Source: Oscillospiraceae bacterium
Lineage (GTDB): Bacteria > Bacillota > Clostridia > Oscillospirales > Oscillospiraceae
DNA length: 64,000 bases
Assembly: GCA_902778665.1 (NCBI GenBank)
Contig: CACYYN010000002.1
Span: 1-64,000 of the forward strand
Direction of reading: 5' to 3'
The notes below the pieces were generated by a model. It had not been told where the DNA came from. It saw only the letters and a program-made list of their open reading frames with translations, and did no database searches. The stretch's first letter is position 1. Each line of letters opens with the position of its first letter. Positions 15,598-60,489 of this stretch are shown piece after piece. Made by a program: the position numbers and the translations under genes.

Positions 15598-15675
15598 AGC
15601 TCGTTTAAAGTGCATAGGAAGTGCTCGGGAGACAACATACACCGTCGTAAGAAGTTGTCTATCCGAGCTCTTTTT
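15598..15675 (+). repeat. structured intergenic element, copy A
   Basis: One of five related elements (others at 17967, 18086, 56181, 60419). The 38-nt core 15627-15664 begins GGGAGACAACAT and ends TCTATCC. The outer stem GCTCGG/CCGAGC (15623-15628 with 15663-15668) and inner stem AGACAAC/GTTGTCT (15630-15636 with 15654-15660) leave an AT bulge on the 3' side. CTTTTTATA follows the stem, so this copy could terminate queT. An upstream GCTCG sits at 15599. Confidence 0.8.
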
Positions 15676-15701
15676 ATATAGTGTAAGATATTGCCAAGCG
15701 C

Positions 15702-15750
15702 AAAAGAGAGCCTCAGATTAACTCTTGGAAGAAGGAGAAAATCTGAGGCT
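15702..15750 (-). terminator. terminator of the DUF896 gene
   Basis: An 11-bp stem AGCCTCAGATT/AATCTGAGGCT (15709-15719 with 15740-15750) is followed on the minus strand by CTCTTTTG. It begins 4 bases after the DUF896 stop. Confidence 0.8.
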
Positions 15751-15754
15751 TTTC

Positions 15755-15958
15755 TTATTGCTTTTTCTGAAGCTTCCGCTTTGTGCCGTCGGGTGTAATG
15801 ATGTAGGTGTTTTCGAGAACCTGCTCGGCACCGCGACGCCACTCGGCTATATATTCCTTACGGAGGACATCACGCTCGGCAAGCTCTTCCTCGGTGAGGA
15901 AACGCTCTTTGGTTAAGCGGGCGAGCTCATTGATACGGTCTAGTTTTGCTGATTCCAT
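15755..15958 (-). CDS. DUF896 (YnzC-like) small protein
   Basis: A 67-aa protein with the DUF896 layout: a helical hairpin (KLDRINELARLTKER, then LTEEELAERDVLRKEYI), then YIITPDGTKRKL. Relatives are small cytoplasmic proteins widespread in Firmicutes whose function is not settled; some are linked to the SOS-response operon. Here it is last in a minus-strand group after deoC and the LRR gene, not next to lexA. AGGAG lies seven bases upstream of the ATG. Confidence 0.88.
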   Translation of the reverse strand: MESAKLDRINELARLTKERFLTEEELAERDVLRKEYIAEWRRGAEQVLENTYIITPDGTKRKLQKKQ

Positions 15959-16004
15959 GTACGACTCCTGAAAATAGATTTACGCAGTCGGAAAAGGGAG
16001 TGAG

Positions 16005-17246
16005 TTAGAAGAGAAGGCGGGGCTGAGCCGTGATGCCGTCATCATAGCGGAAGATTTCGCGGATGCGGCGATAAGGCTCGGTAAAGGTGCCGCCGTTGAA
16101 GCCATCGGTATAGCGCCAACGCCCGTTCAGGGAACCGAGGCCCATGTATGTTTTGCTGAAGTCCATTTCAACACCTGGAAGAAGAGAACGGAAGATTGCC
16201 TCTTCCTTTTCCATATCCAGCTGCATATTGCGCATGTTGGGCGCATAGAAACGTTTGAGATTTTTGCACTCCACAAGGCTGTGGAGGCATGAAATGTCTG
16301 AAACCGTCAGATCGCCCACGTTGAGATGCTCCAGATTCTTCAGCTCGGAGATGGGAGACAGATCAGTAAGGCGGAAGCACTCACACACCTCAAGGTATTT
16401 GAGGTTTTTGCAGCTTGCCACATGGGAAATGTCTTCAAAATCGCTGCAGGCAATGATGAGAACCTCGAGATCGGGCATATAGTCCAGGAAGGAAAGGTCA
16501 GTCATGGCTGAGTGGCCGATATCAAGATGCTTCACTTTGGTGCAATATTTCAGAGCTTCACAGGTTTCATCCCGCAGGTCAACAGATGCCCAGATGGTTT
16601 CAATGTCGGTCATGCAGGAGAAGGGTGAGAAGAAAACACGCCAAACGATTTCGGTATCGGGGAAGTCATCACGGAGGGAGGCACAGGCACGATCTGTGGT
16701 ATCGCACCGGTCAAAGGAGAGATAGGAGAGGTGACGGAGGTAAGGAAGAAGATTGCGGAAGGTTTTGAGGCCGTCATCCCCTATGGGGGTTTGCAGATAA
16801 TCAAGACGGGTTGTGGTGCGGGTGTTGAGGCGCTGCCCGAAAAGATCGAACTCACATTCAATGTCGGCATCGGGGACTGCACGGGCGAGCTTGAGATAAT
16901 CATCCAACGTGAGAAGGGGGATGGAGTCATCCTGCGAAATTGTCACGGAATGAAGAGCAACAAGCTGCTTCAATGCAGAGGCGATGGCTGAAACATCAGA
17001 GGAGGTGACATTTTGCAGAGTGAGTGAAACCGTATCAGAGGGGTAAAGGGTGCCAAGAATTGAGACGGGAGGAAGCGTGGGCTCCGGCGTAGGCACCGGT
17101 GTGGGAAGCGGTGTGGATTCAGGCGCAGGAGTTGCATTACCACGAAAAATGGAGAGTGGGAGGGATCCAACGGAAAGGCCAGAAAAGACACAGCAAAGAA
17201 TCACCAGAAGGAAGACTAATCCGGTATGCTTTTTGCGGGATCTCAT
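16005..17246 (-). CDS. secreted or membrane-anchored leucine-rich repeat protein
   Basis: A 413-aa protein with an N-terminal hydrophobic segment (about 9-29) after a basic RSRKKH start, then a proline/threonine-rich spacer (about 40-60), then leucine-rich repeats between about 180 and 340 (LDIGHSAMTDLSFLDYM, LEVLIIACSDFEDISHV, LEHLNVGDLTVSDISCL). The repeats resemble the internalin-like 20-22-residue type. No lipobox or sortase motif is evident, so it is probably held by the N-terminal segment. The start overlaps the deoC stop by ATGA, an odd partnership with a cytoplasmic aldolase. Function unknown. Confidence 0.75.
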   Translation of the reverse strand: MRSRKKHTGLVFLLVILCCVFSGLSVGSLPLSIFRGNATPAPESTPLPTPVPTPEPTLPPVSILGTLYPSDTVSLTLQNVTSSDVSAIASALKQLVALHSVTISQDDSIPLLTLDDYLKLARAVPDADIECEFDLFGQRLNTRTTTRLDYLQTPIGDDGLKTFRNLLPYLRHLSYLSFDRCDTTDRACASLRDDFPDTEIVWRVFFSPFSCMTDIETIWASVDLRDETCEALKYCTKVKHLDIGHSAMTDLSFLDYMPDLEVLIIACSDFEDISHVASCKNLKYLEVCECFRLTDLSPISELKNLEHLNVGDLTVSDISCLHSLVECKNLKRFYAPNMRNMQLDMEKEEAIFRSLLPGVEMDFSKTYMGLGSLNGRWRYTDGFNGGTFTEPYRRIREIFRYDDGITAQPRLLF

Positions 17247-17926
17247 GATTGGGTTTCTTTCTCCATAGCCATAGCGATTTTGACAATGCGGCTGGTGCCG
17301 AGACGGGTTGCACCGAGGGCTATGAACTTTTCAGCATCTTCAATGGAGGAAATGCCGCCGGCAGCCTTAACCTGAACAGAGGGAGGGCAATTGGCACGCA
17401 TGAGCTCGACATCGGCAAAGGTGGCGCCGCCGGTAGAGAAGCCGGTAGAGGTTTTAATGAAGTCAGCACCGCTGTCAGAGACGATCTGGCACATTCTAAT
17501 CTTTTCCTCCTCGGTGAGGAGGCAGCACTCAATGATGACTTTGAGGATGACGCCACGGGTTGCTTCGCGGACGGCTTTGATGTCATCGGCGACAGAATCC
17601 CAGCAGCCGTCTTTCACCATGGAGAGGTTAATGACCATGTCGACCTCATCGGCGCCGTTGCGAACGGCATCGGCAGCTTCAAAGGCTTTGGCGGCAGTGG
17701 TCATGTAACCGTTGGGGAAGCCGACAACGGTGCAGATTTTGAGGCGGTCGCCCACATAGCGTTTTGCCCCGGCAACATGGCAGGGAGGGATGCAGACGGA
17801 AGCGCAGTGATATTTGATGCCCTGGTCGCAAAGGGTGCGGATTTCAGCTGAGGTGCAATCGGTGCGAAGAAGGGTATGGTCACAGAGGGAGAGAATGTCG
17901 GCAAGGGTGGGTTTCTGTTCAGACAT
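17243..17926 (-). CDS. deoC: deoxyribose-phosphate aldolase
   Basis: Cleaves 2-deoxyribose-5-phosphate to glyceraldehyde-3-phosphate and acetaldehyde in deoxynucleoside catabolism. The 227-aa TIM barrel shows DHTLLRTD at the start, VVGFPNGYMTTAAK, EVDMVINLSMV, LKVIIECCLL and the Schiff-base lysine in DFIKTSTGFSTGGAT (about residue 160). The ATG at 17926 (MSEQKPT) has GGAG nine bases upstream and is preferred over the ATG at 17947. It begins a minus-strand group with the LRR and DUF896 genes. A nucleoside phosphorylase that could feed the same pathway is at 29218. Confidence 0.94.
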   Translation of the reverse strand: MSEQKPTLADILSLCDHTLLRTDCTSAEIRTLCDQGIKYHCASVCIPPCHVAGAKRYVGDRLKICTVVGFPNGYMTTAAKAFEAADAVRNGADEVDMVINLSMVKDGCWDSVADDIKAVREATRGVILKVIIECCLLTEEEKIRMCQIVSDSGADFIKTSTGFSTGGATFADVELMRANCPPSVQVKAAGGISSIEDAEKFIALGATRLGTSRIVKIAMAMEKETQS

Positions 17927-17966
17927 GATGGTTTTCTCCTTTTTCATTAATTTTTATAATTAAAAG

Positions 17967-18037
17967 TCGTAATGAGTGCTAAGCATGTTTCGCGGGAGAC
18001 AACATGGTACGTCGATTTCAAAGCTCTATCCCGCGAA
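17967..18037 (+). repeat. structured intergenic element, copy B
   Basis: Core 17994-18031 begins GGGAGACAACAT and ends CTCTATCC, aligning without gaps to the other four copies. The outer stem TTCGCGGG/CCCGCGAA (17989-17996 with 18030-18037) has 8 perfect pairs; sequence differs from copies A and E but pairing is kept. It is antisense to the flanking genes deoC and clpE, in the 297-base gap between them. Confidence 0.78.
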
Positions 18038-18085
18038 CTGGAAAACAGGGAATAATATGATAAAGGGAATAGTACTAAATTGATC

Positions 18086-18133
18086 TTGCGTGAGATGACA
18101 TTATGCCACAATTTCAGTACTCTATCCTGCTAA
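18086..18133 (+). repeat. structured intergenic element, degenerate copy C
   Basis: Core 18090-18127 (GTGAGATGACAT ... CTCTATCC) has the same 38-nt length as the other cores, with the CCAC and TTTCAG blocks shared with copy E, but the outer stem is eroded. It lies 59 bases after copy B in the same orientation. The remainder of the gap to 18223 is AT-rich and shows no gene. Confidence 0.6.
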
Positions 18134-18223
18134 GTGAAAGAGTATAAATTATGTATACCGGATTATGGCAATTCAAATATGTCGTCTATATTGTATTGAT
18201 TACATTATGCAACTAAAATTACG

Positions 18224-20485
18224 TCAACTGATTTGGATTTGGATCTGATCGTCGGCAGTGGAGAGAGAGACGGCAGAAGCCGGGGTATCAGGATTGGATG
18301 CAGTGAAGGCGATGACGGCTTCGGCTGCAGGGTCTTCAATCTCCTTCTGAATCAGACGGCGAAGATTGCGTGCACCGTAGACGGCGGAATAGCCCTTCTT
18401 CACGAGAAGAGCGGGCACATCTTCAGCCCAGGTGAGAGAGATATTACGGGCAGCAAGAGCATCTTTCAGCTCGCCCAGCATGAGGACGGAAATGGCAGCG
18501 AAATTCTCTTCGGTCAGCTGGTTGAAGCAGATGATTTCGTCCACACGGTTCATGAACTCGGGACGGAGGAACTCGCTGAGGGCCTTCATGCTGCGGTCTT
18601 TGGAAAGGTCACTGAGGGTGCCGCCGAAGCCGATGCCGCCGGATTTGGTGCTGCTGCCGGCATTGGTGGTCATGACGATGACGGTATTTTCAAAGTTAAC
18701 GGTGCGGCCCTGCGCATCGGTGATACGGCCATCATCAAGAATCTGGAGAAGGATGTTCATGACATCCGGGTGGGCCTTCTCGATTTCATCAAAGAGGATA
18801 ACCGAATAGGGTTTACGGCGGATCTTCTCGGTGAGCTGGCCGGCCTCGTCATAACCCACGTAGCCCGGAGGAGAGCCGATGATACGGGAGACGGCAAACT
18901 TTTCCATAAACTCGGACATGTCGAGACGGATGAGGGATTCGGGGGTGTCAAACATATCCTCCGCGAGTCGCTTGACCAGCTCGGTTTTGCCAACGCCTGT
19001 GCTGCCGGTAAAGATGAAGCTGACAGGTTTGCGCTTGGCTTTGAGGCCGACACGGGAACGCTTGATAGCAGAGCAGACGGCATCGACCGCTTCATCCTGC
19101 CCGATGATATGGGCTTTGAGACGGGCATTCATACCGGCAAGACGCTCCAACTCCCCTTCTTTCACGCTGGAGGCTGGAATCTTCGTCCAGAGCTCGATGA
19201 TGCGGGCGAGGTTATCCACGGTGAGCTGAGGCTTTCCTTCTGCTTCGATACGCTTGAGCTGCTGATCGAGCTGCATCTCCTTTGTGCGGAGCTCGGCAAT
19301 GCGGGCATAGCGCTTGTCAAGATATTCCTGCGAGTTTTCCACATTGTCAGGAATGGACTCGGTCATGAGGGCGTTGCGCTCAAAACGGACATTTTCGAGG
19401 TCTCGCGTGATGAGCATGGATGAATTGATATTTTTATCTTTGAGGTTGACGTCGGAACAGGCTTCATCGAGGAGGTCGATAGCCTTGTCGGGAAGGAAAC
19501 GGTCGGTAATGTAACGCTCGCTCATGGTGACAGCGAGACGGCACATCTCTTTCGGGATAACGACACCGTGAAAGTCTTCATAATAATGGGCAATGCCTTC
19601 GATGATTTTTACACTGTCTTCAATGGAGGGCTCCTCCACCGTGACAGGCTGGAAACGACGCTCAAGAGCTGAATCTTTTTCGATATGCTTGCGGTATTCC
19701 ATAAAGGTGGTGGCACCGATGACCTGAATTTCACCACGGGAAAGAGCAGGCTTGAGGATGTTGGCAGCATTCATGCTGCCTTCGGCATCACCTGCACCGA
19801 CAATGGTGTGAATTTCATCAATGACGAGAATGATGTTGCCCTGACGACGGATTTCTTCAATGAGACCCTTCATGCGGCTTTCAAACTGACCGCGAAACTG
19901 GGTGCCTGCCACAAGGGATGTAAGGTCCAGCAGGAAAACCTGCTTATCCTGCAGCTTAACGGGAACACTGCCCTGAGCGATGCGCTGGGCAAGCCCCTCG
20001 GCAATGGCCGTTTTGCCAACGCCCGGCTGACCGATGAGACAGGGATTGTTCTTCTGGCGGCGATTGAGAATCTGAATGACACGCTCCAGCTCTTCCTCAC
20101 GGCCGATCATGGCATCGAGCTTACCCTCGGAGGCACGGGCTGTGAGGTCAATGCAGTAATTATCCAGATACTTATGTTTCGCAGGGCGGGAAGAATCCTT
20201 CTGCGGTTTTGAGGATTGGTCAGGTCGGGAGTCTTTATTCTGCTCTCCCCCACGGCCCATATTGCCGAAGAGCCGGCCGAAAAACGGGAAGGTGGCAGTT
20301 TTGCCTTCATCCTCGGAAGAAGAGGAACCGAAGCGATTCATGATATCATCAACGGGTTTAATATGGAGCTCACGGGCACATTTGAGGCAAAGGCCTTCGT
20401 TTTTGGTCTGGCCGTTGCCTTCGATTTTTGTAATAAAGATGACCGCTACGTTTTTGCCGCAACGGGAACACATGGTTGTCTGCAT
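18224..20485 (-). CDS. clpE: ATP-dependent Clp protease ATPase, ClpE type
   Basis: A 753-aa Hsp100 unfoldase expected to work with ClpP in degrading damaged proteins. The N terminus has a four-cysteine zinc finger (C6, C9, C33, C36) in place of the double Clp-N domain of ClpC, which is the ClpE signature. Two AAA+ modules follow: Walker A GQPGVGKT at about 152-159 with DEIHT, then GSTGVGKT near 490 with LFDEIEKAH and the conserved GSPPGYVGY. A UVR-like middle stretch lies at about 400-435. AGGAG precedes the ATG. It ends a run of ecf, truA and cvpA genes; ctsR, mcsA and mcsB are not nearby, and no clear terminator follows. Confidence 0.92.
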   Translation of the reverse strand: MQTTMCSRCGKNVAVIFITKIEGNGQTKNEGLCLKCARELHIKPVDDIMNRFGSSSSEDEGKTATFPFFGRLFGNMGRGGEQNKDSRPDQSSKPQKDSSRPAKHKYLDNYCIDLTARASEGKLDAMIGREEELERVIQILNRRQKNNPCLIGQPGVGKTAIAEGLAQRIAQGSVPVKLQDKQVFLLDLTSLVAGTQFRGQFESRMKGLIEEIRRQGNIILVIDEIHTIVGAGDAEGSMNAANILKPALSRGEIQVIGATTFMEYRKHIEKDSALERRFQPVTVEEPSIEDSVKIIEGIAHYYEDFHGVVIPKEMCRLAVTMSERYITDRFLPDKAIDLLDEACSDVNLKDKNINSSMLITRDLENVRFERNALMTESIPDNVENSQEYLDKRYARIAELRTKEMQLDQQLKRIEAEGKPQLTVDNLARIIELWTKIPASSVKEGELERLAGMNARLKAHIIGQDEAVDAVCSAIKRSRVGLKAKRKPVSFIFTGSTGVGKTELVKRLAEDMFDTPESLIRLDMSEFMEKFAVSRIIGSPPGYVGYDEAGQLTEKIRRKPYSVILFDEIEKAHPDVMNILLQILDDGRITDAQGRTVNFENTVIVMTTNAGSSTKSGGIGFGGTLSDLSKDRSMKALSEFLRPEFMNRVDEIICFNQLTEENFAAISVLMLGELKDALAARNISLTWAEDVPALLVKKGYSAVYGARNLRRLIQKEIEDPAAEAVIAFTASNPDTPASAVSLSTADDQIQIQIS

Positions 20486-20501
20486 AGTATCTCCTGTAAG
20501 G

Positions 20502-21221
20502 TCAGATCAGAGATCTGGTAATAAAGCGAAATGCCTGGAAGAAGCTGATGAGAGGGGTGGTGTCACAGGTATCTCTGCCGATGAGCATGCCTAGGAAACC
20601 TAAGACCCAGCATGCCAGCACACAGTAGAGGAATCCCCGGACAAAGCCCATTGCCGCACCGGCAACCTCATCGAGGACTTCAACATTTGGCAGGTGAAAA
20701 TCAACATTGAGAATGTCCATAGCGGCAGTAATCAGGATAAGAATCATGATAAAGGCAATAACAAAAAGCCCAACATAAGCTATGGTGTTACAGGCCATGG
20801 TGATGACAGCCTCGGTAACGGTGATGCCCATACGATTGGCATAGCCAACGGACTCATTGGCCTGCTCTTCCGCAATGACACGACAGAAGCCGATGGAGCG
20901 GAGACTCTCGTAGGCATAGTCGTAACGAAGGGAGGTATCCTGGGTGAGAATGTCATCAAGGGAGAGGTCAGTGCCGCCGTAACCGATGGAGGTGAGAATC
21001 TGATCGGTAGTCGTCTCGGAATCGATGTAACCGCCGACGAACGGGCTTAAAGCAGGAACAAGCTCACGGGAGTAGGCAGAAGAGATAGCATTGGCACCGA
21101 CGATTGCGATAAGCGCAGCGAGAAAGCCGGCAACGCCCCCGATGAGGCCCCGCTTGAAACCACCCCAGATACAAAGGGCAAGGATGACCAGCAGTGCAAG
21201 GTTGAGAATGAGTTTTAACAT
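20502..21221 (-). CDS. cvpA: CvpA family membrane protein
   Basis: A 239-aa protein with four to five membrane segments (LILNLALLVILALCIWGGF; VAGFLAALIAIVGANAI; about 130-160; AMGFVRGFLYCVLACWVLGFL). The family is named for colicin V production in Escherichia coli, but its role in Firmicutes is not established; roles in envelope stress or transport are proposed. An extracytoplasmic loop of about 80 residues separates segments two and three. GAGG precedes the ATG, 9 bases after the truA stop. Confidence 0.8.
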   Translation of the reverse strand: MLKLILNLALLVILALCIWGGFKRGLIGGVAGFLAALIAIVGANAISSAYSRELVPALSPFVGGYIDSETTTDQILTSIGYGGTDLSLDDILTQDTSLRYDYAYESLRSIGFCRVIAEEQANESVGYANRMGITVTEAVITMACNTIAYVGLFVIAFIMILILITAAMDILNVDFHLPNVEVLDEVAGAAMGFVRGFLYCVLACWVLGFLGMLIGRDTCDTTPLISFFQAFRFITRSLI

Positions 21222-21230
21222 GATAACACC

Positions 21231-22001
21231 TCAATCTGTCATGAACATTTCGCCGACCGGGCCATCATACCAGACACGGTTGAGATAGAGCCCCTGAGGA
21301 GGCATTGTAGGGCCAGTCAGGCGTCTGTCCCCCTTTTCAAGGAGAGCAGGAATATCTTCGGGCAGGAGCTTACCGTAGGCAGCATAAACCATGGTGCCCA
21401 CCATAGCCCTGCACATGTTATAGAGAAAGCCATCGGCACAGACGGCTATGGAGATAATGTCTCCGCTTTTTTCGGCATGGCAGGAAAAGACCGTGCGAAC
21501 GGTGGTTCTGGTCTCGGTGCCGACACTGCGAACGGCACGGAAATCATGGGTGCCGATGAAAGCAGAGGCCGCACGGGAGATGAGATCCATATCCAGCTGT
21601 TGCGGCCAGAAACAGACACGGTCTGCCAGGAAGGGATCGCGAATGCGACTGTTCAGAATTTTATAAACATACTCCTTTTTGACACAGGAGGAGATTGCAT
21701 TGAATTCAGACGGGGCATCGCAGGCAGAAACCACGGCGATATCCGCCGGGAGGCGAGAATTGACCGCAAGAGGAACCTTGTCGATGGGGATGGACGTATC
21801 CGCCCGGAAATTGGCACAATAGCGCAGGGCGTGTACGCCTGCATCGGTACGGCCGCAGCCGGTGACTTTAACAGGCTGACCGAAGACCTTTTCGAGGGCT
21901 TCCTCCATGGTCTGTGCAACGGTAATGTCTTTTTTCTGCACCTGCCAGCCATGATATCGGCTGCCGTCATAACGGAGGCGAAGAGCGATATTTCTCACCA
22001 T
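21231..22001 (-). CDS. truA: tRNA pseudouridine(38-40) synthase
   Basis: Makes pseudouridine at positions 38-40 of the tRNA anticodon stem-loop. The 256-aa protein has the family start LRLRYDGSRYHGWQVQ, the catalytic aspartate in GRTDAGVHAL (about residue 55), and the C-terminal FLYNMCRAMVGT block. The ATG at 22001 lies 2 bases after the ecfT stop; the longer open frame to 22139 overlaps ecfT fully. The ecfA1-ecfA2-ecfT-truA order is conserved across Firmicutes, usually after ribosomal genes; here a methyltransferase gene precedes instead. Confidence 0.95.
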   Translation of the reverse strand: MVRNIALRLRYDGSRYHGWQVQKKDITVAQTMEEALEKVFGQPVKVTGCGRTDAGVHALRYCANFRADTSIPIDKVPLAVNSRLPADIAVVSACDAPSEFNAISSCVKKEYVYKILNSRIRDPFLADRVCFWPQQLDMDLISRAASAFIGTHDFRAVRSVGTETRTTVRTVFSCHAEKSGDIISIAVCADGFLYNMCRAMVGTMVYAAYGKLLPEDIPALLEKGDRRLTGPTMPPQGLYLNRVWYDGPVGEMFMTD

Positions 22002-22003
22002 GG

Positions 22004-22801
22004 TCAGAACCCGAGCCTTCTGATGACAATGACAGCAGCAAGAAAAACTGCGCCAAGAATGAGCGCCGTGATATCTGCAGAGGTCATTTTCAACTGCTTC
22101 ATGCGCGTTCTGCCCTCGCCGCCGTGATAGCAACGGCACTCCATGGCAACGGCAAGCTCATCCGCACGCCGGAAGGATGAGACGAAGAGAGGCACGAGAA
22201 CGGGAATGAGAGCCTTGGCACGCCGGACAAGACTGCCGGTTTCAAAGTCAGCCCCCCTCGCCCGCTGGGCGGACATGATTTTATCTGTCTCTTCAATGAG
22301 GGTGGGGATGAAGCGAAGGGCCATGCTCATCATCATGGTCATCTCATGGATTGGAACCTTCAGCTTTTTAAGGGGGTTGAGGAGAATTTCCAGCCCGTCC
22401 GTAAGGGCTATGGGACTGGTGGTGTAGGTGAGAAGAAATGTGCCTGTGATGAGCAGCACAATGCGAAGAACCATTTTGATTGCCCTGGCAATGCCCTCCC
22501 AGGTGATAATCCAGCCGGGAAGCACAGGGGTGCCCGTCGTATAGAAAATATTCAGAACCGCAGTGAGCGTGATGATGACCAGCATGGGTTTAAGACCTTT
22601 GAAGAGGTTCTTTGCCCGGATGCGGGAAAGGCTCTGACAGATGACAGAAACCACCAGAACCAAACCGTAGGAAACCCAACTGTCAGCCGTGAATAGCGCA
22701 ATAATGTAAAACAGAACCAGAATAATCTTTGTGCGGGGATCCAGCCGGTGAACAATAGTATCGCCGGGAAAATACTGGCCGAGCGTAATATCCTTCAGCA
22801 T
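22004..22801 (-). CDS. ecfT: ECF transporter transmembrane component EcfT
   Basis: The 265-aa membrane scaffold of group II energy-coupling-factor vitamin transporters. Membrane segments lie at about 25-60, 65-85, 105-135 and the C-terminal end. The two short coupling-helix motifs that dock the ATPases are visible as AQRARGADF (about residue 180) and AMECRCYHG (about 225). S components such as QueT (15099) would share it. GGAGG lies upstream of the ATG, and the gene overlaps ecfA2 by 7 bases. Confidence 0.95.
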   Translation of the reverse strand: MLKDITLGQYFPGDTIVHRLDPRTKIILVLFYIIALFTADSWVSYGLVLVVSVICQSLSRIRAKNLFKGLKPMLVIITLTAVLNIFYTTGTPVLPGWIITWEGIARAIKMVLRIVLLITGTFLLTYTTSPIALTDGLEILLNPLKKLKVPIHEMTMMMSMALRFIPTLIEETDKIMSAQRARGADFETGSLVRRAKALIPVLVPLFVSSFRRADELAVAMECRCYHGGEGRTRMKQLKMTSADITALILGAVFLAAVIVIRRLGF

Positions 22802-23655: not shown

Positions 23656-23658
23656 CTG

Positions 23659-24492: not shown

Positions 24493-24499
24493 ACAGGAA

Positions 24500-25563: not shown

Positions 25564-25570
25564 AAAAAAG

Positions 25571-27305: not shown

Positions 27306-27372
27306 TTCTTCAACATCATACATAACCGATGAAGCATACGGGATCCGGGAGAAAGGAGACCGTGTGTTGAGG

Positions 27373-27448
27373 AACTCTGGAGAACCCCGCATGGGCGGGT
27401 GCCGAAGGTGCAAGGCGAGAGCCGAATCTCTCAGGCAAAAGGACAGAG
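27373..27448 (+). promoter_or_regulatory. single-aptamer glycine riboswitch
   Basis: P1 CTCTG/CAGAG (27375-27379 with 27444-27448) closes an aptamer with the conserved blocks GCCGAAGGTGCAAGG and TCTCTCAGGCAAAAGGACAGAG. Only one aptamer is present. The 5' strand AACTCTGGAG (27373-27382) can also pair with CTCCGGAGTT (27481-27490), which contains the 5' part of the terminator at 27486-27514. Glycine binding would hold P1 closed and free the terminator, predicting an OFF switch. Confidence 0.9.
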
Positions 27449-27485
27449 CGGAAGGATACGGCATTGCTGTACCGAAGAAACTCCG

Positions 27486-51515: not shown

Positions 51516-51561
51516 AAAAGCTTGAGCCTTCTATTTTTAGTGCGTGACAGATCTCTCCCCT

Positions 51562-51584
51562 CGTGGTGAAGTGTTGTCACCACG
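51562..51584. other. perfect hairpin between convergent genes
   Basis: CGTGGTGA/TCACCACG (51562-51569 with 51577-51584) with a 7-base loop, between the P-type-like gene and the glycosyltransferase gene. No T-run follows on either strand; it may still limit read-through in both directions. Confidence 0.55.
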
Positions 51585-51622
51585 CGCAATCGGTTGGCAT
51601 CTGAAGCGAAAGAAAACAGAAA

Positions 51623-52804: not shown

Positions 52805-52866
52805 CTTTTCTCCCCATTCAGTTTCTTTCTGCCAATTCTTTACTCTCTTCTGTCTCCCCTGAATAT

Positions 52867-52894
52867 AACAAAGCGCTGTGCCAAGCACAGCGCT
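52867..52894 (-). terminator. terminator of the BspA-type repeat gene
   Basis: AGCGCTGTGC/GCACAGCGCT (52872-52881 with 52885-52894) followed on the minus strand by TTGTTAT; the T-run is interrupted. It lies 18 bases after the stop at 52913. Confidence 0.7.
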
Positions 52895-52912
52895 CAATCA
52901 TTATGCCAGCTG

Positions 52913-53572
52913 TTATTCCACAGTATAAGGGATGCCTGCATTCTCAGCAAACTGCTCGGCATAGGAGCCATCCGCTACACATAGCGTAAGACGGTTGCAA
53001 TCTTTAAAGGCATCCTCCGCTATTTCCGAAACAGATGCGGGGATTGCAAGAGATTCAAGCGATGTGCAGAAATCAAACGCTCTGGATCCGATTTTCTCCA
53101 CCGTGGAGGGAAGAGAGACAGAGGTAAGCGCCGGGCAGAACATAAAGGTGCCGGCAGGAATCTCCGTAATACCTTCGGGAAGGGCTATAGACTCCAGATC
53201 GACACAATTCTGGAAAGCGTAACGCCCGACAGACTGAACAGAAGCCGGAATGGTAATACGCTGAAGTTCCGTGCAACCGTGAAACGCATAATCCCCGATC
53301 GCCTTGACACGGCTGGAAAGACGCACATTCACTAGATTGTCATTGAACTCAAACGCCGACGGCCCGACCTCTGTAATGAAGCGGTGCCCGATGCTGGAAT
53401 CCAGATGCAGGTCAATCCCGTCGCCGTGGAAGCCGACAACGGAAACTTCCTCATCGTTAATGATCTTGTAACGGTAGGAGCCTCCTTCGAAGACTTCATC
53501 ATCCGCAAAAACAACAATTGAAATAGACAGGATCAATGCAATCGCCATAAAAACTGCGATTATTCGTTTCAT
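52913..53572 (-). CDS. secreted BspA-type leucine-rich repeat protein
   Basis: A 219-aa protein with signal peptide (about 1-23, VFA-DD). From about residue 65 it has five BspA/LRR_5 repeats of 23 residues (GDYAFHGCTELQRITIPASV, then GRYAFQNCVDLESIALPEG, and similar). Such proteins are secreted and often bind host or other bacterial surfaces. There is no anchor motif, so it may be released. The ATG at 53572 has GGAGGGG upstream; the frame to 53644 lacks a site. Confidence 0.85.
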   Translation of the reverse strand: MKRIIAVFMAIALILSISIVVFADDEVFEGGSYRYKIINDEEVSVVGFHGDGIDLHLDSSIGHRFITEVGPSAFEFNDNLVNVRLSSRVKAIGDYAFHGCTELQRITIPASVQSVGRYAFQNCVDLESIALPEGITEIPAGTFMFCPALTSVSLPSTVEKIGSRAFDFCTSLESLAIPASVSEIAEDAFKDCNRLTLCVADGSYAEQFAENAGIPYTVE

Positions 53573-53738
53573 TTTCAACCCCTCCTTGAATCGGAAGCTA
53601 TCAATACTTATTTTAATTATATCACGCAACGGTATAATTCGCAAGGAGCTTTTCTATGCTTTTCGACAGAAAGATGCATATATACTATCCAGGAAGCTGA
53701 AATGTTGGTGCTCCGCCATTGATTTATGTTGCTAAGCG

Positions 53739-53795
53739 CCCAACATGCCCTAACTGCCCAATATACCCAAGTTGCCCTATTTACCCAAATGGCCC
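53739..53795 (-). repeat. 9-nt-period GGG array (potential G-quadruplex)
   Basis: On the minus strand seven GGG tracts recur at exactly 9-base intervals (plus-strand CCC at 53739, 53748, 53757, 53766, 53775, 53784, 53793), each loop being 6 bases, with consensus TTGGGYA or TAGGGCA. It starts 8 bases after the stop of the lipoprotein gene at 53803 and lies upstream of the BspA-type gene, both on this strand, so it would be in the RNA. Confidence 0.9.
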
Positions 53796-53802
53796 ACAAA
53801 GT

Positions 53803-54702
53803 TTAAGGCGAGGCCTGCTTCGTCAGGACGATTTTGTAGTCAAAGCCGCCGGACAGATCATTGCAGGAGCCGGTGAGACGGAGGACATCGGTTTTCGCGT
53901 TGCGGTCGACTGGTGTTTCGGAATTGTAGAAGTGACCATATTCGTAGATATCCGGATGGAAAATGACGGTATCTTCGATATCAGTGAGCTTTTCGGCGTC
54001 CAGTGAAATATCCATGCCCCATTCGGGAATCGGATAGGACATCATATAACCTGAAAGGCAGTGAACTTTGTATTCCTCCAGAGAAAAGGATGCAGAGGCC
54101 ATGGGGACAGCATCAGAATAATAGGGACTGTAGAGACGGAGAACGCCGGTGCCGTCAGGCTGAACACTAACTGAGCAGGTAACAGTAAGGGTACGGTCAC
54201 GATAATCTGCCCATTCCCCTTTCGGCTCTTCAAACCAGAGACGGCCGGACCAGTCACCACTCCAGATCAGCTGCTGGCGGGTCTGAGATAGGAGATTGGA
54301 AGCGGATGCAGACTCGTTAAGATCAGATGTGATGTCTCCCTCAGTAAAGATCAGGTCCAGATGAAGCATGTCGAGAGAAAGAGACAGGGAATCTTCTTCT
54401 CTGGTCCCGTAGGCTGTAAGAGTATTGATTGCAACAGAAAAAGATGTATTTTCCTGCTGCCAGGTAATATCTGAGGCGTCTGATCCGAGAATCAGTCGGC
54501 CGGTTCCGTCTGAGCTCAGGAGGAGATATGCACCTTCCGGATAAAGGGAAGAAGGAGACAGAGCTTCTCCATCGAGGAGAACCCCTGAGAGAATATATCG
54601 CCCCGCATCATATGACGGGTCTTGTTCACCTGTGCAGGCAGTGAGGAAGATTGTCAGCCATAAAATCAATATAAGAATATTATTTTTTGTTTTATTATTC
54701 AT
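53803..54702 (-). CDS. hypothetical lipoprotein
   Basis: A 299-aa exported protein with a hydrophobic N terminus and lipobox FLTAC (cysteine at about residue 23). The mature part is rich in beta-type stretches (GRYILSGVLLDGEALSP, TGRLILGSDASD, LIWSGDWSGRLWFEEPKGEW, TGVLRLYSPYY) and resembles small-molecule- or glycan-binding lipoproteins of Clostridia, but I cannot name the family. The ATG at 54702 has no clear binding site; a TTG at 54738 in the same frame is the alternative. The GGG array follows its stop. Confidence 0.75.
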   Translation of the reverse strand: MNNKTKNNILILILWLTIFLTACTGEQDPSYDAGRYILSGVLLDGEALSPSSLYPEGAYLLLSSDGTGRLILGSDASDITWQQENTSFSVAINTLTAYGTREEDSLSLSLDMLHLDLIFTEGDITSDLNESASASNLLSQTRQQLIWSGDWSGRLWFEEPKGEWADYRDRTLTVTCSVSVQPDGTGVLRLYSPYYSDAVPMASASFSLEEYKVHCLSGYMMSYPIPEWGMDISLDAEKLTDIEDTVIFHPDIYEYGHFYNSETPVDRNAKTDVLRLTGSCNDLSGGFDYKIVLTKQASP

Positions 54703-54767
54703 ATGTTGGAGTATATCGTGACCGGAAAGCAAAATCAAGAGGGATTTTTACCTTACACTCACATATA

Positions 54768-54804
54768 AGAAAAGGCAAGCACGCTTTGACTACGTGTTTG
54801 CCTT
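54768..54804 (-). terminator. terminator after tRNA-Arg
   Basis: AAGGCAAgCACG/CGTGtTTGCCTT (54772-54783 with 54793-54804) followed on the minus strand by TTCTTAT, 4 bases after the tRNA end. Confidence 0.8.
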
Positions 54805-54808
54805 AAAG

Positions 54809-54882
54809 TACGGCTGACGGGATTCGAACCCACGACCTCCAGAGTCGGAGTCTGGCACTCTATCCAGCTGAGCTACAGCCGC
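54809..54882 (-). tRNA. tRNA-Arg(CCG)
   Basis: A 74-nt cloverleaf. Acceptor GCGGCTG/CAGCCGT (closing G-U), D-arm TAGCTCAGCTGGATAGAG, anticodon stem CCAGA/TCTGG with loop CTCCGAC giving anticodon CCG, T-arm GTGGGTTCGAATCCC. CCA is not encoded. Reads CGG. Confidence 0.94.
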
Positions 54883-54960
54883 ATAACGGAAGTTATTATA
54901 GCAAATAAATCAATAAATGTAAAGTTCTGTTTTTTCTTTATTTTACGTTCAAACTAACTC

Positions 54961-54989
54961 TTGATTTTATCGTCCGGGCACGATATACT
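54961..54989 (+). promoter_or_regulatory. promoter of the lipoprotein gene at 55023
   Basis: TTGATT (54961-54966), 17-base spacer, TATACT (54984-54989), 33 bases before the ATG. Confidence 0.75.
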
Positions 54990-55022
54990 TGTTTTGTTAT
55001 GTAAATCAGAGGTGAAACGATC

Positions 55023-56180
55023 ATGAAACGAGCCATAGCTCTGTTTTTCATTATCTTATTATGTTTTACAATTACCGGGTGCGGAAAGCAGCAGGAGTAC
55101 ACGGATTATACCCAGTATCTGACACCCTCAGCGTCTGAAAACGGCACGAATGGCGGTCAGAGTCCGGTTCAGTCGGCACAGTTTGTGGGTGCCGATGCAG
55201 ACCAGCTGCCCCAGGGGCAGCAAATTGCCGGCGGGCAGGACGGAAACCAGAGTGCTGCCACCGGACAGGGGCAGACCAACGGACAAGTGCAGGCAACGAA
55301 TGCACCGGTAAACACCGCCTCCCCCGCAGCAACCGGAACAGGGAGCGGAAGCCCCCAGGATTCGGCATCCAGTGACTTTGCAAATGTGGTGACGATTGTT
55401 GCCACGCCTGCACCGGTTGTTACGCAGGCTCCGATGCCGGTTATTACCCCAACCCCTACTCCGTTTGCCATTCAGACGCCCGCCCCGACACCGATACCGA
55501 ACCAGATCAGAATCACAAAAAGCCCCATCTCCGAAACATTGCAGGAGGGCGGAAGCTGCTACTTCACGGCATATGCCGACAATTCGCAGGGCATCACGTG
55601 GATCACGGTGAGTCCGGACGCGAAGAACTCGTACCTGATTGGGGATGCGGTAAAGCTGTTTCCGGGGCTGAATGTTTCCGGACAAGGCACCAACACGCTG
55701 TCCCTTGCCAACGTGCCCTATGCCATGAACGGCTGGCGGATTCAGGCTTATTTTTCCGGAAACGGCGGACCCCAGTATACTGCGGGAGCGTATCTCACTG
55801 TGTTGCCCGGAATGCCTGTCTGGCCGACAGCTGCCCCCACCTACAAGCCTGTGGACCCGGCGGAATCCAACGTGGCTGAGATGGCCAAAAAGGCCTACAG
55901 CGACGTTTATTACACAGCTTCCGCAAACGGATTCAGTGTAGGAAACATTGTCAATTATATTTACAACAACGGTGTGGCGGACTTTAACATCACGGTGAGC
56001 AACTACCGATATCAGATTATCGGGGAATTCAATGCCTACTGTTATGCCGCCGGCAACTCGGGATACGGGCCGGCGCATGTGATGGTTTACGACAATTACG
56101 GGAATCTGCAGGCCAGCGTGAATCTGAGCGGGCAGGGAATGAGCGCTTATTTTGCGCTGTTAAGCGGATATTTGTACTAA
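55023..56180 (+). CDS. hypothetical lipoprotein with Ig-like domain
   Basis: A 385-aa exported protein. Signal peptide with lipobox TITGC (cysteine at about residue 20). Residues 25-160 are a long low-complexity linker rich in Q, G, T, P and S (QGQTNGQVQATNAPVNT; PTPTPFAIQTPAPTP). A beta-rich segment of about 100 residues follows (ITKSPISETLQEGGSCYFTA to AGAYLTVLP), like a bacterial Ig-type domain, then a C-terminal region of about 100 residues (MAKKAYSDVYYTAS ... MSAYFALLSGYLY) of unknown fold. Repeat element D begins directly after the stop codon. Confidence 0.78.
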   Translation: MKRAIALFFIILLCFTITGCGKQQEYTDYTQYLTPSASENGTNGGQSPVQSAQFVGADADQLPQGQQIAGGQDGNQSAATGQGQTNGQVQATNAPVNTASPAATGTGSGSPQDSASSDFANVVTIVATPAPVVTQAPMPVITPTPTPFAIQTPAPTPIPNQIRITKSPISETLQEGGSCYFTAYADNSQGITWITVSPDAKNSYLIGDAVKLFPGLNVSGQGTNTLSLANVPYAMNGWRIQAYFSGNGGPQYTAGAYLTVLPGMPVWPTAAPTYKPVDPAESNVAEMAKKAYSDVYYTASANGFSVGNIVNYIYNNGVADFNITVSNYRYQIIGEFNAYCYAAGNSGYGPAHVMVYDNYGNLQASVNLSGQGMSAYFALLSGYLY

Positions 56181-56252
56181 TGCTCGCAATGAATAAAAGC
56201 AAATTACGCGGGAGACATCTGCATGCCACGTAGTGACAGGTCTATCCCGCGT
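56181..56252 (+). repeat. structured intergenic element, copy D
   Basis: Starts at the base after the lipoprotein stop with TGCTCGC. Core 56210-56247 (GGGAGACATCTG ... GTCTATCC). Outer stem ACGCGGG/CCCGCGT (56206-56212 with 56246-56252), inner stems AGAC/GTCT and CTG/CAG with the same AT bulge on the 3' side. Upstream 32 bases align without gaps to copy E. Confidence 0.8.
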
Positions 56253-56342
56253 TTCAACTGACAGGGGCTGCAGCCTCTCATCCACCGTTGGGAGGCAACG
56301 GTCCCCCCTCTCACGAGAGAAAAGCTATGTAAGGAGAAAAAC
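56253..56342 (+). other. leader region of galT with a small hairpin
   Basis: Between element D and galT. ACCGTTG/CAACGGT (56284-56290 with 56296-56302) surrounds the loop GGAGG, a Shine-Dalgarno-like sequence not placed before any start. CTCTC/GAGAG forms a second short hairpin near 56310-56320. No promoter is clear. Role unknown. Confidence 0.4.
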
Positions 56343-57845
56343 ATGGAAAGAGTATTAAATGCGCTGCTGGACTATGCAGAAGAAAAGGAACTGATTGCAC
56401 GGGAAGATCGTGTTTGGGCTTTCAACCGGCTGCTGGAGGTCATGCAGCTGGATTCCGCCGAGGCTGCCGGAGAATATGCCCTGCCCGAGGCAGGTGCACC
56501 GATGCCTGCTGCCCTGCTGGACATTCTGACAGAGGACGCCTTAAAACGCGGAATTATTGAGAGTGGAAGCACTGCACATGACCTGTTTGACACAAAGCTG
56601 ATGGGTGTGTTGACGCCTGCCCCCCATGAGGTGAGGGCAAAATTCCGGGCACTTTACGCCGAATCTCCCCTTGCGGCGACAGACTGGTATTATCAGTTCA
56701 GCGGAGACACCAATTACATCCGCCGTGACAGACTGGCCAAAGATGAAAAGTGGCTTTATGAGGGGGAATACGGCACGCTGGAAGTGACCATCAACCTGGC
56801 AAAGCCGGAAAAGGACCCGAGAGCCATTGCCGCCGCAAGGAATGCAGCGCAGACGGGTTATCCCCTCTGCCAGCTCTGTGCAGAAAATGAGGGCTATGCA
56901 GGGCGCATGGATCATCCTGCAAGGCAGAACCACAGAGTTGTGCCTGTGACGATTAACGGCAGCGCATGGTATCTGCAGTACTCCCCCTATGTCTACTACA
57001 ATGAGCACTGCATTCTCTTCAACGGAGAGCATGTGCCGATGAAGATTGATGAAGCGGCCTTCCGTAAGCTGTTTGATTTTGTAAGGCAGTTCCCCCACTA
57101 CAACATCGGGTCTAATGCGGATTTACCCATCGTAGGCGGATCAATTTTGAGCCATGACCATTTTCAGGGCGGGCGGCATGACTTTCCTATGGCGAAGGCT
57201 GAGATTGACACACCGGTATTCTTTAAGGGCTATGAGGATGTGAAGGCCGGCATATTAAAGTGGCCGATGTCCGTCATCCGCCTGGATTGCCCGGATTATG
57301 AGCGCCTGACAGAGCTGGCAACGAAAATTCTCGCCTGCTGGCGGGGATACACCGATGAGGCGGCATTCATCTTTGCGGAGACGGAGGGCGTGCCCCACAA
57401 CACACTCAACCCGATTGTGCGCAAACGCGGAGAGGACTATGAGCTTGACCTGGTGCTGCGCAACAACATCACGACTGAAGAGCACCCGCTGGGCGTTTAT
57501 CATCCGCATGCGAAGCTGCACCACATCAAGAAGGAGAATATCGGCCTGATTGAAGTGATGGGGCTGGCCATCCTGCCCGGGCGGTTGAAGACCGAGATAG
57601 AGGCACTGAAAAAAGCGATTCTGGATGGTGCGGATCTGTATGCGGATGACACGCTGGTCAAGCATGCAGACTGGGCATATGAACTGATGAGCAGCTATGC
57701 GTTCAACGAGGAGAACACAGAACAGATTCTCCGCCGGGAGATCGGAAAAGTGTTTGAAGAGGTGCTGGAGGACGCAGGTGTATACAAGAGAGATGAGGCG
57801 GGCAAAGCTGCCTTCCTGCGGTTTATTGACACCGTTAACGGATGA
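56343..57845 (+). CDS. galT: UDP-glucose:hexose-1-phosphate uridylyltransferase (Firmicutes type)
   Basis: Second enzyme of the Leloir galactose pathway; swaps UMP between UDP-glucose and galactose-1-phosphate. A 500-aa protein of the GalT family 2 found in Firmicutes (about 490 aa, longer than the E. coli type). Blocks: WYYQFSGDTNYIRRDR, CQLCAENEGYAGR, QNHRVVPV, YNEHCILFNGEH and the catalytic His region SHDHFQGGRHD (about residue 265). AAGGAG precedes the ATG. galK and galE are not in the window. It overlaps the following GTPase-nuclease gene by 4 bases. Confidence 0.93.
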   Translation: MERVLNALLDYAEEKELIAREDRVWAFNRLLEVMQLDSAEAAGEYALPEAGAPMPAALLDILTEDALKRGIIESGSTAHDLFDTKLMGVLTPAPHEVRAKFRALYAESPLAATDWYYQFSGDTNYIRRDRLAKDEKWLYEGEYGTLEVTINLAKPEKDPRAIAAARNAAQTGYPLCQLCAENEGYAGRMDHPARQNHRVVPVTINGSAWYLQYSPYVYYNEHCILFNGEHVPMKIDEAAFRKLFDFVRQFPHYNIGSNADLPIVGGSILSHDHFQGGRHDFPMAKAEIDTPVFFKGYEDVKAGILKWPMSVIRLDCPDYERLTELATKILACWRGYTDEAAFIFAETEGVPHNTLNPIVRKRGEDYELDLVLRNNITTEEHPLGVYHPHAKLHHIKKENIGLIEVMGLAILPGRLKTEIEALKKAILDGADLYADDTLVKHADWAYELMSSYAFNEENTEQILRREIGKVFEEVLEDAGVYKRDEAGKAAFLRFIDTVNG

Positions 57846-60415
57846 AAAAGACGGTACTCGGCATTGTCGCCCATGTTGATGCCGGGAAGACAACACTGAC
57901 CGAGGCTATGCTCTACCTGTCAGGGCAGATCAGAAGCCTCGGTCGCGTTGACCACCGGAACAGTTTTCTGGACAACAATGACCAGGAACGGGAGCGGGGC
58001 ATCACAATTTTTTCCAAGCAGGCGATGCTGCAGTGGAAAAATCTGGCAGTGACGCTGCTGGATACACCGGGGCATGTAGACTTTTCGGCAGAAATGGAGC
58101 GGACACTGCAGGTGCTGGATGCGGCAGTGCTCGTGATCAGCGGGACGGACGGTGTGCAGGCACACACGGAAACGCTGTGGAGTCTGCTGGAGGACTACAA
58201 AATCCCGGTGTTTGTGTTTATCACCAAGATGGATGCCTCCAACCTGTCAAGAGAAGAGCTGATGCACGACCTGCGCACACATTTGAGCGAAGGCTGCATT
58301 GACATGTGCGGTGAGAGCGAGGAGCGTGATGAGGCAATTGCGCTTCTGGATGAAAACTGCCTGGAAGCGTATATGAAGACCGGTATAGTGGATGCCGCAA
58401 GCATCACGCGCCTGATCAAAGAGAGGAAGCTCTACCCCTGCTATTTCGGCTCCGGCTTGAAGCTCGACGGAGTGGAGGAATTTCTGGACGCACTGGAAGC
58501 CTATACGCCGGAAATTCACGCCCCCGATGTGTTTGGGGCAAAGGTATATAAAATTCTGCGTGACAGCCGTGGGAAAAGGCTGACGTGCATGCGCATCACG
58601 GGAGGAAAGCTCTCCGTTCGGGATGCGATACGGTATCTCCCCCTGCACGGCAGTGAGCCTTTGGAAGAAAAAGTTGCCGAGATCCGGCTTTATTCCGGGC
58701 AGAAGTATGAAACAGCAGAATCTGCCGAGGCGGGAACGATCTGTTCCGTAGCCGGGCTGACCGGCACATGGCCGGGACAGGGGCTTGGTATTGAACCGGA
58801 TTCAAGCGCTCCGATTCTGGAGAGCGTACTGGGGTACAGAATGATTTTCCCGAAAGGGACAGACCTTCAGGCTGTTCTGCCCCGCCTGCGGATGCTGGAG
58901 GAAGAGGACCCGACACTGCACCTGGTATGGGAGCCAACGTTAGGTGAGATTCAGCTGCAGCTGATGGGAAGTGTGCAGACAGAGATCCTGCGGAATATTA
59001 TAAGGGATCGCTTCGATCTGGATGTGCAGTTCGGCCCGGGGCGGATTCTCTACCGGGAGACGATTGCCGAGCCGGTGGAGGGTGTGGGGCATTATGAGCC
59101 ACTGCGCCATTATGCAGAAGTTCATCTGCTGCTGGAACCCGGAGAACCGGGCAGCGGTCTTACTTTTGACAGCGTTTGCAGCACTGACACACTGGACCTG
59201 AACTGGCAAAGGCTGATATTCACGCATCTGGAAGAAAAGGTCCACCGGGGCGTACTGACGGGAGCCCCCATCACAGACATGAAAATAACCCTGACGGCCG
59301 GACGTGCACACCTGAAGCACACAGAGGGTGGAGACTTTCGCCAGGCCACCTATCGGGCCGTACGGCAGGGACTGATGCGTGCAAAGAGCGTGTTATTGGA
59401 ACCATACTACCGCTTTCGTCTGGAGGTGCCGACCGAACAGATCGGGCGTGCGATTTCAGACATCCGACTGATGGGAGGCGAACATGAAGCCCCTGAAACC
59501 ATAGACGGGAAAGCAGTGCTCTGCGGGACGGCGCCGGTTGCAGCCATGGCAGAATACGGCACGGAAGTGGCAGCATACACCGGTGGGAGAGGGCGGTTTT
59601 CCTGCCGGGCAGAGGGATACAGACCCTGCATGAATGCACAGGCTGTTATTGAGCAGGCAGCATATGACCCGGAAAGCGATCTGGACAACTCGCCGGACAG
59701 CATTTTCTGCGCCCACGGTGCAGGCTTTGTTGTAAAATGGAATCAGGTGGAGGAATACATGCACCTCCCTGCCCTTTTCCCGTCAAAAGGCACCGAAGCG
59801 GAGGCAAAAACAGCCTCATCTGCTCCCTCCCGCTCCGGAAGCGGAAGCAGCATCTCCATCGATGAGAAGGAGCTGGAGGCGATTATGGAGAGGGAATTCG
59901 GCCCGATCCGGCGAAAGCAGTATGCCTCCCCTACCGTAAACGGAAAAAACGTTCAGCAGCTGCGATGGCAGCCGAGAAAAGAAAGGCTGATTGTTGACGG
60001 ATACAACCTGATATTTGCCTGGGACGAACTGAGGAAACTTGCATCGGAAAGCCTGGATTCTGCACGGGAAAAGCTGATAGACAAGATGATCAACTACAGC
60101 GGTTTCACAAACAGGGAGACCGTGCTGGTGTTTGACGCTTACAAAGTGCCCGGAGGACAGGGCGAGAAATATGACTCGGCAAACCTGCATGTAGCCTATA
60201 CACGTGAAAATGAGAGCGCCGATCTCTATATTGAGAGGCTGGCAGATGAGATTGGAAAGAATGAAGCAGTACGCGTGGTGACTTCCGACTCGCTCATCCG
60301 GCTGACTGCTCTGCGTGCAGGCGTGCTGCGGACATCTTCGAAGGAGTTTCAGGTTGAGGTAGAGGAGACTCTGAAGGAGATGCGATCGAAGGAATTTATG
60401 GTTCGTTCGGAATGA
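57842..60415 (+). CDS. TetM-like ribosome-protection GTPase fused to a YacP/Rae1-type NYN nuclease domain
   Basis: An 857-aa two-part protein. Residues 1-640 follow elongation factor G and TetM: G1 AHVDAGKTT, G2 RGITI, G3 DTPGHVDF, G4 TKMD, then ISGTDGVQAHTETLW; domain IV and V features LEPYYRFRLEVPTEQIGRA and GGRGRFSCRAEGY match TetM. A serine-rich linker (about 650-715) leads to a NYN domain at about 718-845: VDGYNLIFAWDEL, VLVFDAYKVPGG, TRENESADLYIERLADEI and VVTSDSLIRL, like YacP/Rae1 of Bacillus, a ribosome-associated endonuclease. I infer a factor that binds the A site and cuts mRNA or acts in ribosome rescue. Tetracycline resistance is possible but not shown. It overlaps galT by 4 bases (ATGA). 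Confidence 0.9.
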   Translation: MKKTVLGIVAHVDAGKTTLTEAMLYLSGQIRSLGRVDHRNSFLDNNDQERERGITIFSKQAMLQWKNLAVTLLDTPGHVDFSAEMERTLQVLDAAVLVISGTDGVQAHTETLWSLLEDYKIPVFVFITKMDASNLSREELMHDLRTHLSEGCIDMCGESEERDEAIALLDENCLEAYMKTGIVDAASITRLIKERKLYPCYFGSGLKLDGVEEFLDALEAYTPEIHAPDVFGAKVYKILRDSRGKRLTCMRITGGKLSVRDAIRYLPLHGSEPLEEKVAEIRLYSGQKYETAESAEAGTICSVAGLTGTWPGQGLGIEPDSSAPILESVLGYRMIFPKGTDLQAVLPRLRMLEEEDPTLHLVWEPTLGEIQLQLMGSVQTEILRNIIRDRFDLDVQFGPGRILYRETIAEPVEGVGHYEPLRHYAEVHLLLEPGEPGSGLTFDSVCSTDTLDLNWQRLIFTHLEEKVHRGVLTGAPITDMKITLTAGRAHLKHTEGGDFRQATYRAVRQGLMRAKSVLLEPYYRFRLEVPTEQIGRAISDIRLMGGEHEAPETIDGKAVLCGTAPVAAMAEYGTEVAAYTGGRGRFSCRAEGYRPCMNAQAVIEQAAYDPESDLDNSPDSIFCAHGAGFVVKWNQVEEYMHLPALFPSKGTEAEAKTASSAPSRSGSGSSISIDEKELEAIMEREFGPIRRKQYASPTVNGKNVQQLRWQPRKERLIVDGYNLIFAWDELRKLASESLDSAREKLIDKMINYSGFTNRETVLVFDAYKVPGGQGEKYDSANLHVAYTRENESADLYIERLADEIGKNEAVRVVTSDSLIRLTALRAGVLRTSSKEFQVEVEETLKEMRSKEFMVRSE

Positions 60416-60418
60416 GCT

Positions 60419-60489
60419 TGCTCGCTATCAATACAAATCATGTGCTCGGGAGACAACATTTCTCCACGATTTCAGAATTCTATCCGAGC
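60419..60489 (+). repeat. structured intergenic element, copy E
   Basis: Begins 4 bases after the stop of the GTPase-nuclease gene with TGCTCGC. Core 60448-60485 (GGGAGACAACAT ... TCTATCC). Outer stem GCTCGG/CCGAGC (60444-60449 with 60484-60489), identical to copy A. Inner AGA/TCT with the 3' AT bulge. No T-run follows. Confidence 0.8.

Follow-up and report, generated by a model that had tools for sequence, protein, structure and literature searches.

Short palindromes with a common core stand between genes at several places in a 64,000-nucleotide stretch of an Oscillospiraceae bacterium genome (contig CACYYN010000002.1 of assembly GCA_902778665.1, positions 1 to 64,000; hereafter the window), raising the question of whether they are an RNA signal serving the neighbouring genes or a repeat that moves. 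A sequence-only reading had described five copies of a dispersed RNA element, all on the plus strand, and had considered a 3'-UTR processing signal, a small-RNA family and a REP-like mobile palindrome. Our results argue for the last of these: the element is most likely a non-autonomous dispersed palindromic repeat of the REP/MITE class, which spreads, is kept at harmless sites, can be carried by phages, and is found in one uncultured Oscillospiraceae genus.

Copies in the window and anatomy of the element

The genome from which the window comes (G000, 84% complete) was compared with a close relative, G024, and with further relatives (G020, G015, G081, G001 and G076), and copies were sought with two covariance models, R1 built from 8 copies and R2 from 37. 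All five copies were found again where they had been placed (Table 1), but the plus-strand rule did not hold, R2 having added a sixth copy on the minus strand. The ungapped 38-nt core, GGGAGACA-N23-TCTATCC, has four occurrences in the window, copy C being degenerate, and was absent from all 100 dinucleotide shuffles. The outer stems read as described, GCTCGG/CCGAGC in A and E and CGCGGG/CCCGCG in B and D, where they extend to 8 and 7 bp, respectively. The co-varying inner stem stood for the AAC/GTT extension of A and the CTG/CAG extension of D but is not general, many copies having only AGA/TCT. As single sequences, copies A and D fold better than their shuffles (z of -3.87 and -2.89), and B, C and E little or no better (-0.04, -1.22 and -1.23). 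The proximity of A, D and E to upstream stop codons was borne out, as was the antisense position of B and C, which lie within the clp-deoC operon. Copy E is placed before a terminator-like hairpin that is also present in G024.

Table 1. Coordinates of the element and of associated features (window positions unless a locus is named)
Feature	Position	Strand	Remarks
Copy A	15597..15674	+	starts 3 nt after the queT stop codon; R2 70.9 bits
Copy A stem	15623-15628 / 15663-15668	+	from the sequence
Copy B	17963..18042	+	in the gap separating deoC from the Clp ATPase gene; antisense to the operon; R2 70.6 bits
Copy C	18080..18137	+	degenerate second hairpin beside B; R1 40.7 bits, R2 30.1 bits
Sixth copy	51534..51613	-	between two convergent genes; R2 38.5 bits
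Copy D	56180..56258	+	begins on the final base of a 385-aa gene's stop codon; R2 59.8 bits
Neighbouring palindrome, probably another repeat family	56259..56340	.	adjoins copy D, absent in G024; assigned by eye
Copy E	60418..60495	+	2 nt after the GTPase-NYN gene stop; R2 78.8 bits
Second dispersed repeat	L063:2840-2980, L067:4045-4185, L022 near 1078, L062 near 12043
GIY-YIG nuclease genes (C50; C13)	L006:1642-2367; L063:2055-2783

The element is about 71-80 nt long and consists of a 5' tag (CTCGnnATnAGTGC) followed by a hairpin. The hairpin stem is variable and mostly 6-8 bp long; beyond it come a small internal loop whose 3' side is AT or GT in most copies, AGA/TCT pairs, and a loop of about 30 nt. 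A majority consensus over 36 of the 37 rows in alignment A4 reads TTGCTCGTTATGAGTGCAAAGCAATTGCTCGGGAGACAACATTGTACCTCGATTTCAGTGCTCTATCCGAGCTTAAAA. The CTCG tag, about 20 nt 5' of the stem, appears a second time in the loop as a direct repeat, with 11 of 14 consensus positions agreeing at a distance of 44, a value reached by 28 of 20,000 shuffles. Since tag and loop are no more alike within one copy than between different copies, we regard this repetition as an old feature.

The stems occur in several variants (GCTCGG/CCGAGC, GCTCGCG/CGCGAGC, ACGCGGG/CCCGCGT, GCGCGTG/CACGCGC and GCGCGG/CCGCGC). RNAalifold found no pairs on alignment A4, probably as a result of mixed stem registers, so the stems were tested by swapping arms between copies instead. 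For 67 copies from G000, G020 and G024, treated without alignment, the longest helix averaged 7.36 bp as observed and 5.36 bp after swapping, with 0 of 500 swaps as high as the observed value; a helix of at least 6 bp was formed by 58 of the 67, and narrower windows gave 5.99 observed against 4.19 swapped. Among 15 G015 copies, which are more alike, the observed value was reached in 2 of 500 exchanges. In alignment A4, for whose fitting a closely related structure had been used, paired cells make up 90% against 80% after shuffling, slid versions pair less, and double changes occur in 6 of 9 pairs. The hairpin stems change with compensation, and the covariance-model search returned many further copies that keep compensatory pairs, rather than chance hairpins. 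At the gathering threshold no Rfam family matched the window copies or the long form on C13, the only matches being unrelated or below threshold.

These tests drew on 90 R2 matches, from which one duplicate (L049:11872) and two partial rows (L073:10189 and L075:11171) were removed for the arm swap, the open-frame test and the orientation counts with both ORF callers described below. The arm-swap and open-frame tests also left out two nested long forms (C13 and C15), two type-M forms (C59) and the C5 long form, and the open-frame test additionally the copies inside genes and degenerate copy C. The long form, of about 141 nt, holds a second dispersed repeat nested in the region of the 5' arm; this repeat (GCGCC..GGCGC, ending GCGAGTCGCAG) also stands alone.

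Distribution, insertion sites and gene ends

At a threshold of E 0.01, with up to 150 candidates scored per genome and weak matches that may include chance ones, R2 gave 39 matches in G000, 43 in G024, 9 in G020, 45 in G015 and 1 in G081. Among 40 further genus members, searched at E 0.001 with up to 118 candidates scored per genome, G076 was the only carrier, with one match; across the two thresholds, 6 of the 50 genus genomes searched have matches and 44 have none. R1 had matched in 3 of 60 relatives. Order-wide, R2 matched in 1 of 394 genomes, namely G000, a weak negative given that 12 candidates were scored per genome. The G015 matches form a divergent subtype, with a best E of 1.6e-6, and it is their architecture that ties them to the family. 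The G015 copies at L182, L184, L189 and L192 share an upstream flank ending ttttggac, and a larger composite repeat may exist there.

Orthologous sites are filled in one genome and empty in another. The neighbours of sites D and E are also present in G024, where the element is missing; its site D has a short stretch resembling a recurring 19-mer, agagaaccgtcccctgtg. Copies in the clp-deoC gap number two in G000 and one in G024, and the gap is free of them in G081 and G001; occupancy of this gap may have been common to the ancestor of G000 and G024, and losses could explain some of the empty sites. No target-site duplication could be defined, the filled and empty sites being too diverged to fix the ends of the element. 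Stretches like agagaaccgtcccctgtg also lie downstream of the copies at L050:545-620, L053:104-180 and L050:4255-4332, recurring after several copies.

The placement of the copies was analysed for 59 intergenic copies with two neighbours each (from G000, G024 and G020; edge copies, 7 in G000 and 2 in G015, were set aside), using a codon-scored ORF caller that we made. Twenty lie between convergent genes, one between divergent genes, and 38 between co-directional genes, of which 15 have the same orientation as both neighbours and 23 the opposite one. Gaps holding no copy, 224 in G000 and G024 together, comprise 156 co-directional, 27 convergent and 41 divergent ones, so that copies show a convergent excess (Fisher p 0.0003) and a divergent deficit (p 0.0007), although the copies are not independent. 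Orientation between co-directional genes is free (p 0.26): of the strand and gene-end bias sought, the 3'-end bias is there and the strand preference is not. A cruder ORF caller gave 23 copies co-oriented with both neighbours, 19 convergent, 18 antisense to both and 4 divergent, and the G015 copies, counted apart from the 59, gave 6, 5, 2 and 0 in the same order.

In G000 the nearest gene 3' end lies a median of 7 nt away (n=29), with 20 copies within 30 nt of one; in G024 the median is 40 nt (n=26). In some cases the stop codon is part of the copy itself, as on C60, where a phage gene ends inside the tag. Inside ORFs, the codon-scored caller placed 5 copies in sense and 1 in antisense (L080:5823), the latter at an ORF start that was possibly set too early. 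A T-run, as a terminator would have, often follows the G015 copies; by eye, it follows the hairpin in few copies of G000 and G024.

Copies inside prophage genes

Twelve copies were read from inside three phage gene families, encoding a virion protein, a primase and a polymerase. All 12 are in sense, and 11 have the tag in one codon register. They occupy six different positions, and where a position is shared, one event may have been passed down a phage lineage. Judging from their open frames, these copies are presumably translated. Outside genes, the sense frame is open in 56 of 60 copies against 49.2 (sd 2.5) when shuffled, and the antisense frame in 49 against 49.2; the sense excess is a mild bias.

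The prophage virion structural protein (phrog_3287) has three variable places which, among its homologues in G000 and relatives, are empty or hold this element, a shortened form of it, or another repeat family; the inserts are in frame, the one exception being the third place on C5, whose frames do not agree. In the phage primase-helicase (phrog_1883), the element sits in one linker on C48, C55 and G024 C72, and in G076. This linker has 35-52 residues in the 29 measurable viral homologues of 60 fetched, 71-128 residues in the four carriers, and 65 in the C13 homologue without the element. The family A polymerase of G024 has two inserts, one of them a few residues before motif A by alignment to DNA polymerase I, and its homologues on C55, in G020 and in G015 are without both. 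AlphaFold models of the polymerase (four sequences) were poor, with a mean pLDDT of 48.3, and were left out of the reading.

Other repeats behave similarly: another intergenic family (cttcccct...ggtggatgaggt) reads in frame in prophage proteins, in the L094 virion gene and the L301 primase, and the palindrome adjoining copy D probably belongs to it, by eye. Phage-like contigs hold about 17 of 41 G000 matches in the regions fetched, roughly two fifths by a tally made by eye. The single copy of G076, with no other detected there, is inside a phage primase, which fits phages as carriers. We put forward, more tentatively than the mobile-repeat reading itself and as something short of an even chance, that prophages are both a site of multiplication and the vehicle between species and that the element, with other repeat families, adds in-frame segments to loops of the virion protein, the primase and the DNA polymerase. 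Searches of viral sequence gave no copy: of the 14 stretches that a pattern scan of IMG/VR returned, R1 scored none at E 0.1; R2, run on 53 of 60 viral primase loci that had been fetched, matched none of these and all 3 added controls, two of which belonged to the R2 model; and copy A had no blastn match in phages.

Long virion-gene matches were seen on five G000 contigs (C5, C39, C51, C55 and C65), suggesting several related prophages. The C5 prophage region also encodes a protein of metallo-beta-lactamase fold (L048:7996-8796) with a weak, below cut-off match to the anti-Pycsar protein Apyc1.

A proposed mode of spread, competing explanations and known repeats

In the mechanism we propose, the element would spread to new sites, as occupancy between species suggests, and insertions would survive where they do little harm, that is, after stop codons, between convergent genes, and in in-frame linkers of prophage proteins. 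An enzyme supplied in trans might act on the hairpin as single-stranded DNA; by analogy with REP systems, it would probably recognise the tag and the hairpin with its internal loop. Phages could carry the element into other hosts. A candidate enzyme was sought among Y1 transposases, of which none was found in G000 (84% complete) and two in G024, with no R2 match in the regions fetched around them; a C42 virion gene carries a long-form copy some 5 kb from one of the two. Of 186 neighbouring proteins, 80 were scanned against Pfam and NCBIfam; no transposase was among the best 25 of 153 and the best 25 of 676 families, beyond which rarer transposase families could be hidden. A GIY-YIG nuclease gene of the group I intron type, below the NCBIfam cut-off, lies next to and downstream of a copy on C50, and a similar gene was seen by eye on C13.

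The main competitor takes the element as a 3'-UTR signal, a hairpin in the transcript that is bound or cut and so sets the stability or termination of the upstream gene. It would account for the short distances to gene 3' ends in G000, and the covariation of the stem, the position of copy E before a terminator-like hairpin and the T-runs after G015 copies are all in its favour. Yet orientation is free between co-directional genes, B and C are antisense in an operon, the phage genes contain in-frame copies, few G000 and G024 hairpins have a T-run, and 44 of the 50 genus members searched gave no match. We therefore consider a 3'-UTR function improbable, and with no Rfam match either, the processing signal and the small-RNA family are not favoured; the original term, dispersed RNA element, keeps its first half, given the many copies and the filled and empty orthologous sites, and is weakened in its second. 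A role of individual transcribed copies is possible, though not favoured as a general one, and the G015 copies, with the T-run at their end, could act as terminators.

Two further explanations are both very unlikely in our estimation. One holds that the copies are site-specific recombination sites, the ends of cassettes joined by a recombinase as in integrons, whose attC core sites read RYYYAAC and GTTRRRY. Placement after stop codons and clusters in prophages would follow from it, the tag is directly repeated, and further 3' halves were seen by eye 40-100 nt downstream of several copies; but the core-site motifs are absent, by eye, from the consensus ends, copies point both ways with no single-orientation array seen, and the difference from G024 at sites D and E holds no gene. 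The other holds that the copies inside genes are intron-like, removed at the RNA level or bypassed by ribosomes. Conserved enzymes are indeed interrupted, in one case just before the polymerase motif A, and the GIY-YIG genes on C50 and C13 would suit an intron, whereas removal would not require the one open register kept in 11 of the 12, no Rfam intron family matches the long form, and the same element also stands between genes.

A REP-like mobile palindrome, by comparison, is supported by copy number, filled and empty orthologous sites, location at 3' ends and copies inside genes. REPs are described as dispersed palindromes that are placed at the 3' ends of genes and in convergent gaps, provide stop codons, lie inside DNA synthesis genes including that for DNA polymerase I, and differ between species (Di Nocera 2013, PMC3733652). 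The present element shares all these features, although its copies inside genes are in prophage genes of Oscillospiraceae. Unlike the GTAG type, it has no GTAG at the foot of its hairpin, neither in the consensus nor, judged by eye, in the copies listed. GTAG REPs have an associated RAYT (Y1 transposase) gene; the two Y1 genes of G024 have no R2 match in the regions fetched around them. The CGTC type, which has no known transposase (PMC3733652), has CGTC, TGTC or CCTC at the stem, an 8-9 bp stem and a 4-5 nt loop, in contrast to the stem, the loop and the distant CTCG tag found here.

The likeness to RPEs, which PMC10969869 and PMC2229807 describe as palindromes in frame inside conserved Rickettsia proteins and also between genes, is in the in-frame copies with empty homologues. 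RPEs have 105-146 bp and a terminal inverted repeat of about 12 bp, whereas only the internal hairpin pairs in our shorter element, and its copies read inside genes are all in phage genes. Nested repeats and convergent-gap placement also recall the pneumococcal BOX, RUP and SPRITE families, which form clusters with insertions of one family into another and are enriched between convergent genes (PMC3049150); the BOX module order, in which boxA and boxC flank boxB units of variable number, has no counterpart here, the middle of the long form being a separate dispersed repeat. The terminal inverted repeats and target-site duplication of a MITE are not definable with sites so diverged. In its behaviour the element resembles a REP or an RPE, but it does not have the tag, the stem-loop or the terminal repeats expected of these families; we therefore file it as a new variant, an untagged REP/MITE-like palindrome, and not as a member of either.

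Protein-coding palindromes are described from Rickettsia and other REP-rich bacteria; here they are in prophage virion and replication genes, with filled and empty homologues partly within one genome, and our literature search found nothing on point, either for phage genes or for Oscillospiraceae. Phages could be both a vehicle and a breeding ground for short repeats, and if the phage-carried reading is true, such repeats would be a source of new phage protein sequence. The spread of REP-like elements without a dedicated transposase becomes testable.

Two other features of the window were noted. The gene upstream of copy E (57842-60415) encodes an EF-G-like GTPase fused to a YacP-type NYN domain; this protein has a match at E 1e-100 in 54 of 61 genus genomes, and its closest named relatives are from metagenome-assembled genomes of uncultured Oscillospiraceae and other Clostridia, including some from rabbit, deer, sheep and goat gut. 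A glycine riboswitch (27367-27456) precedes the gene at 27464.
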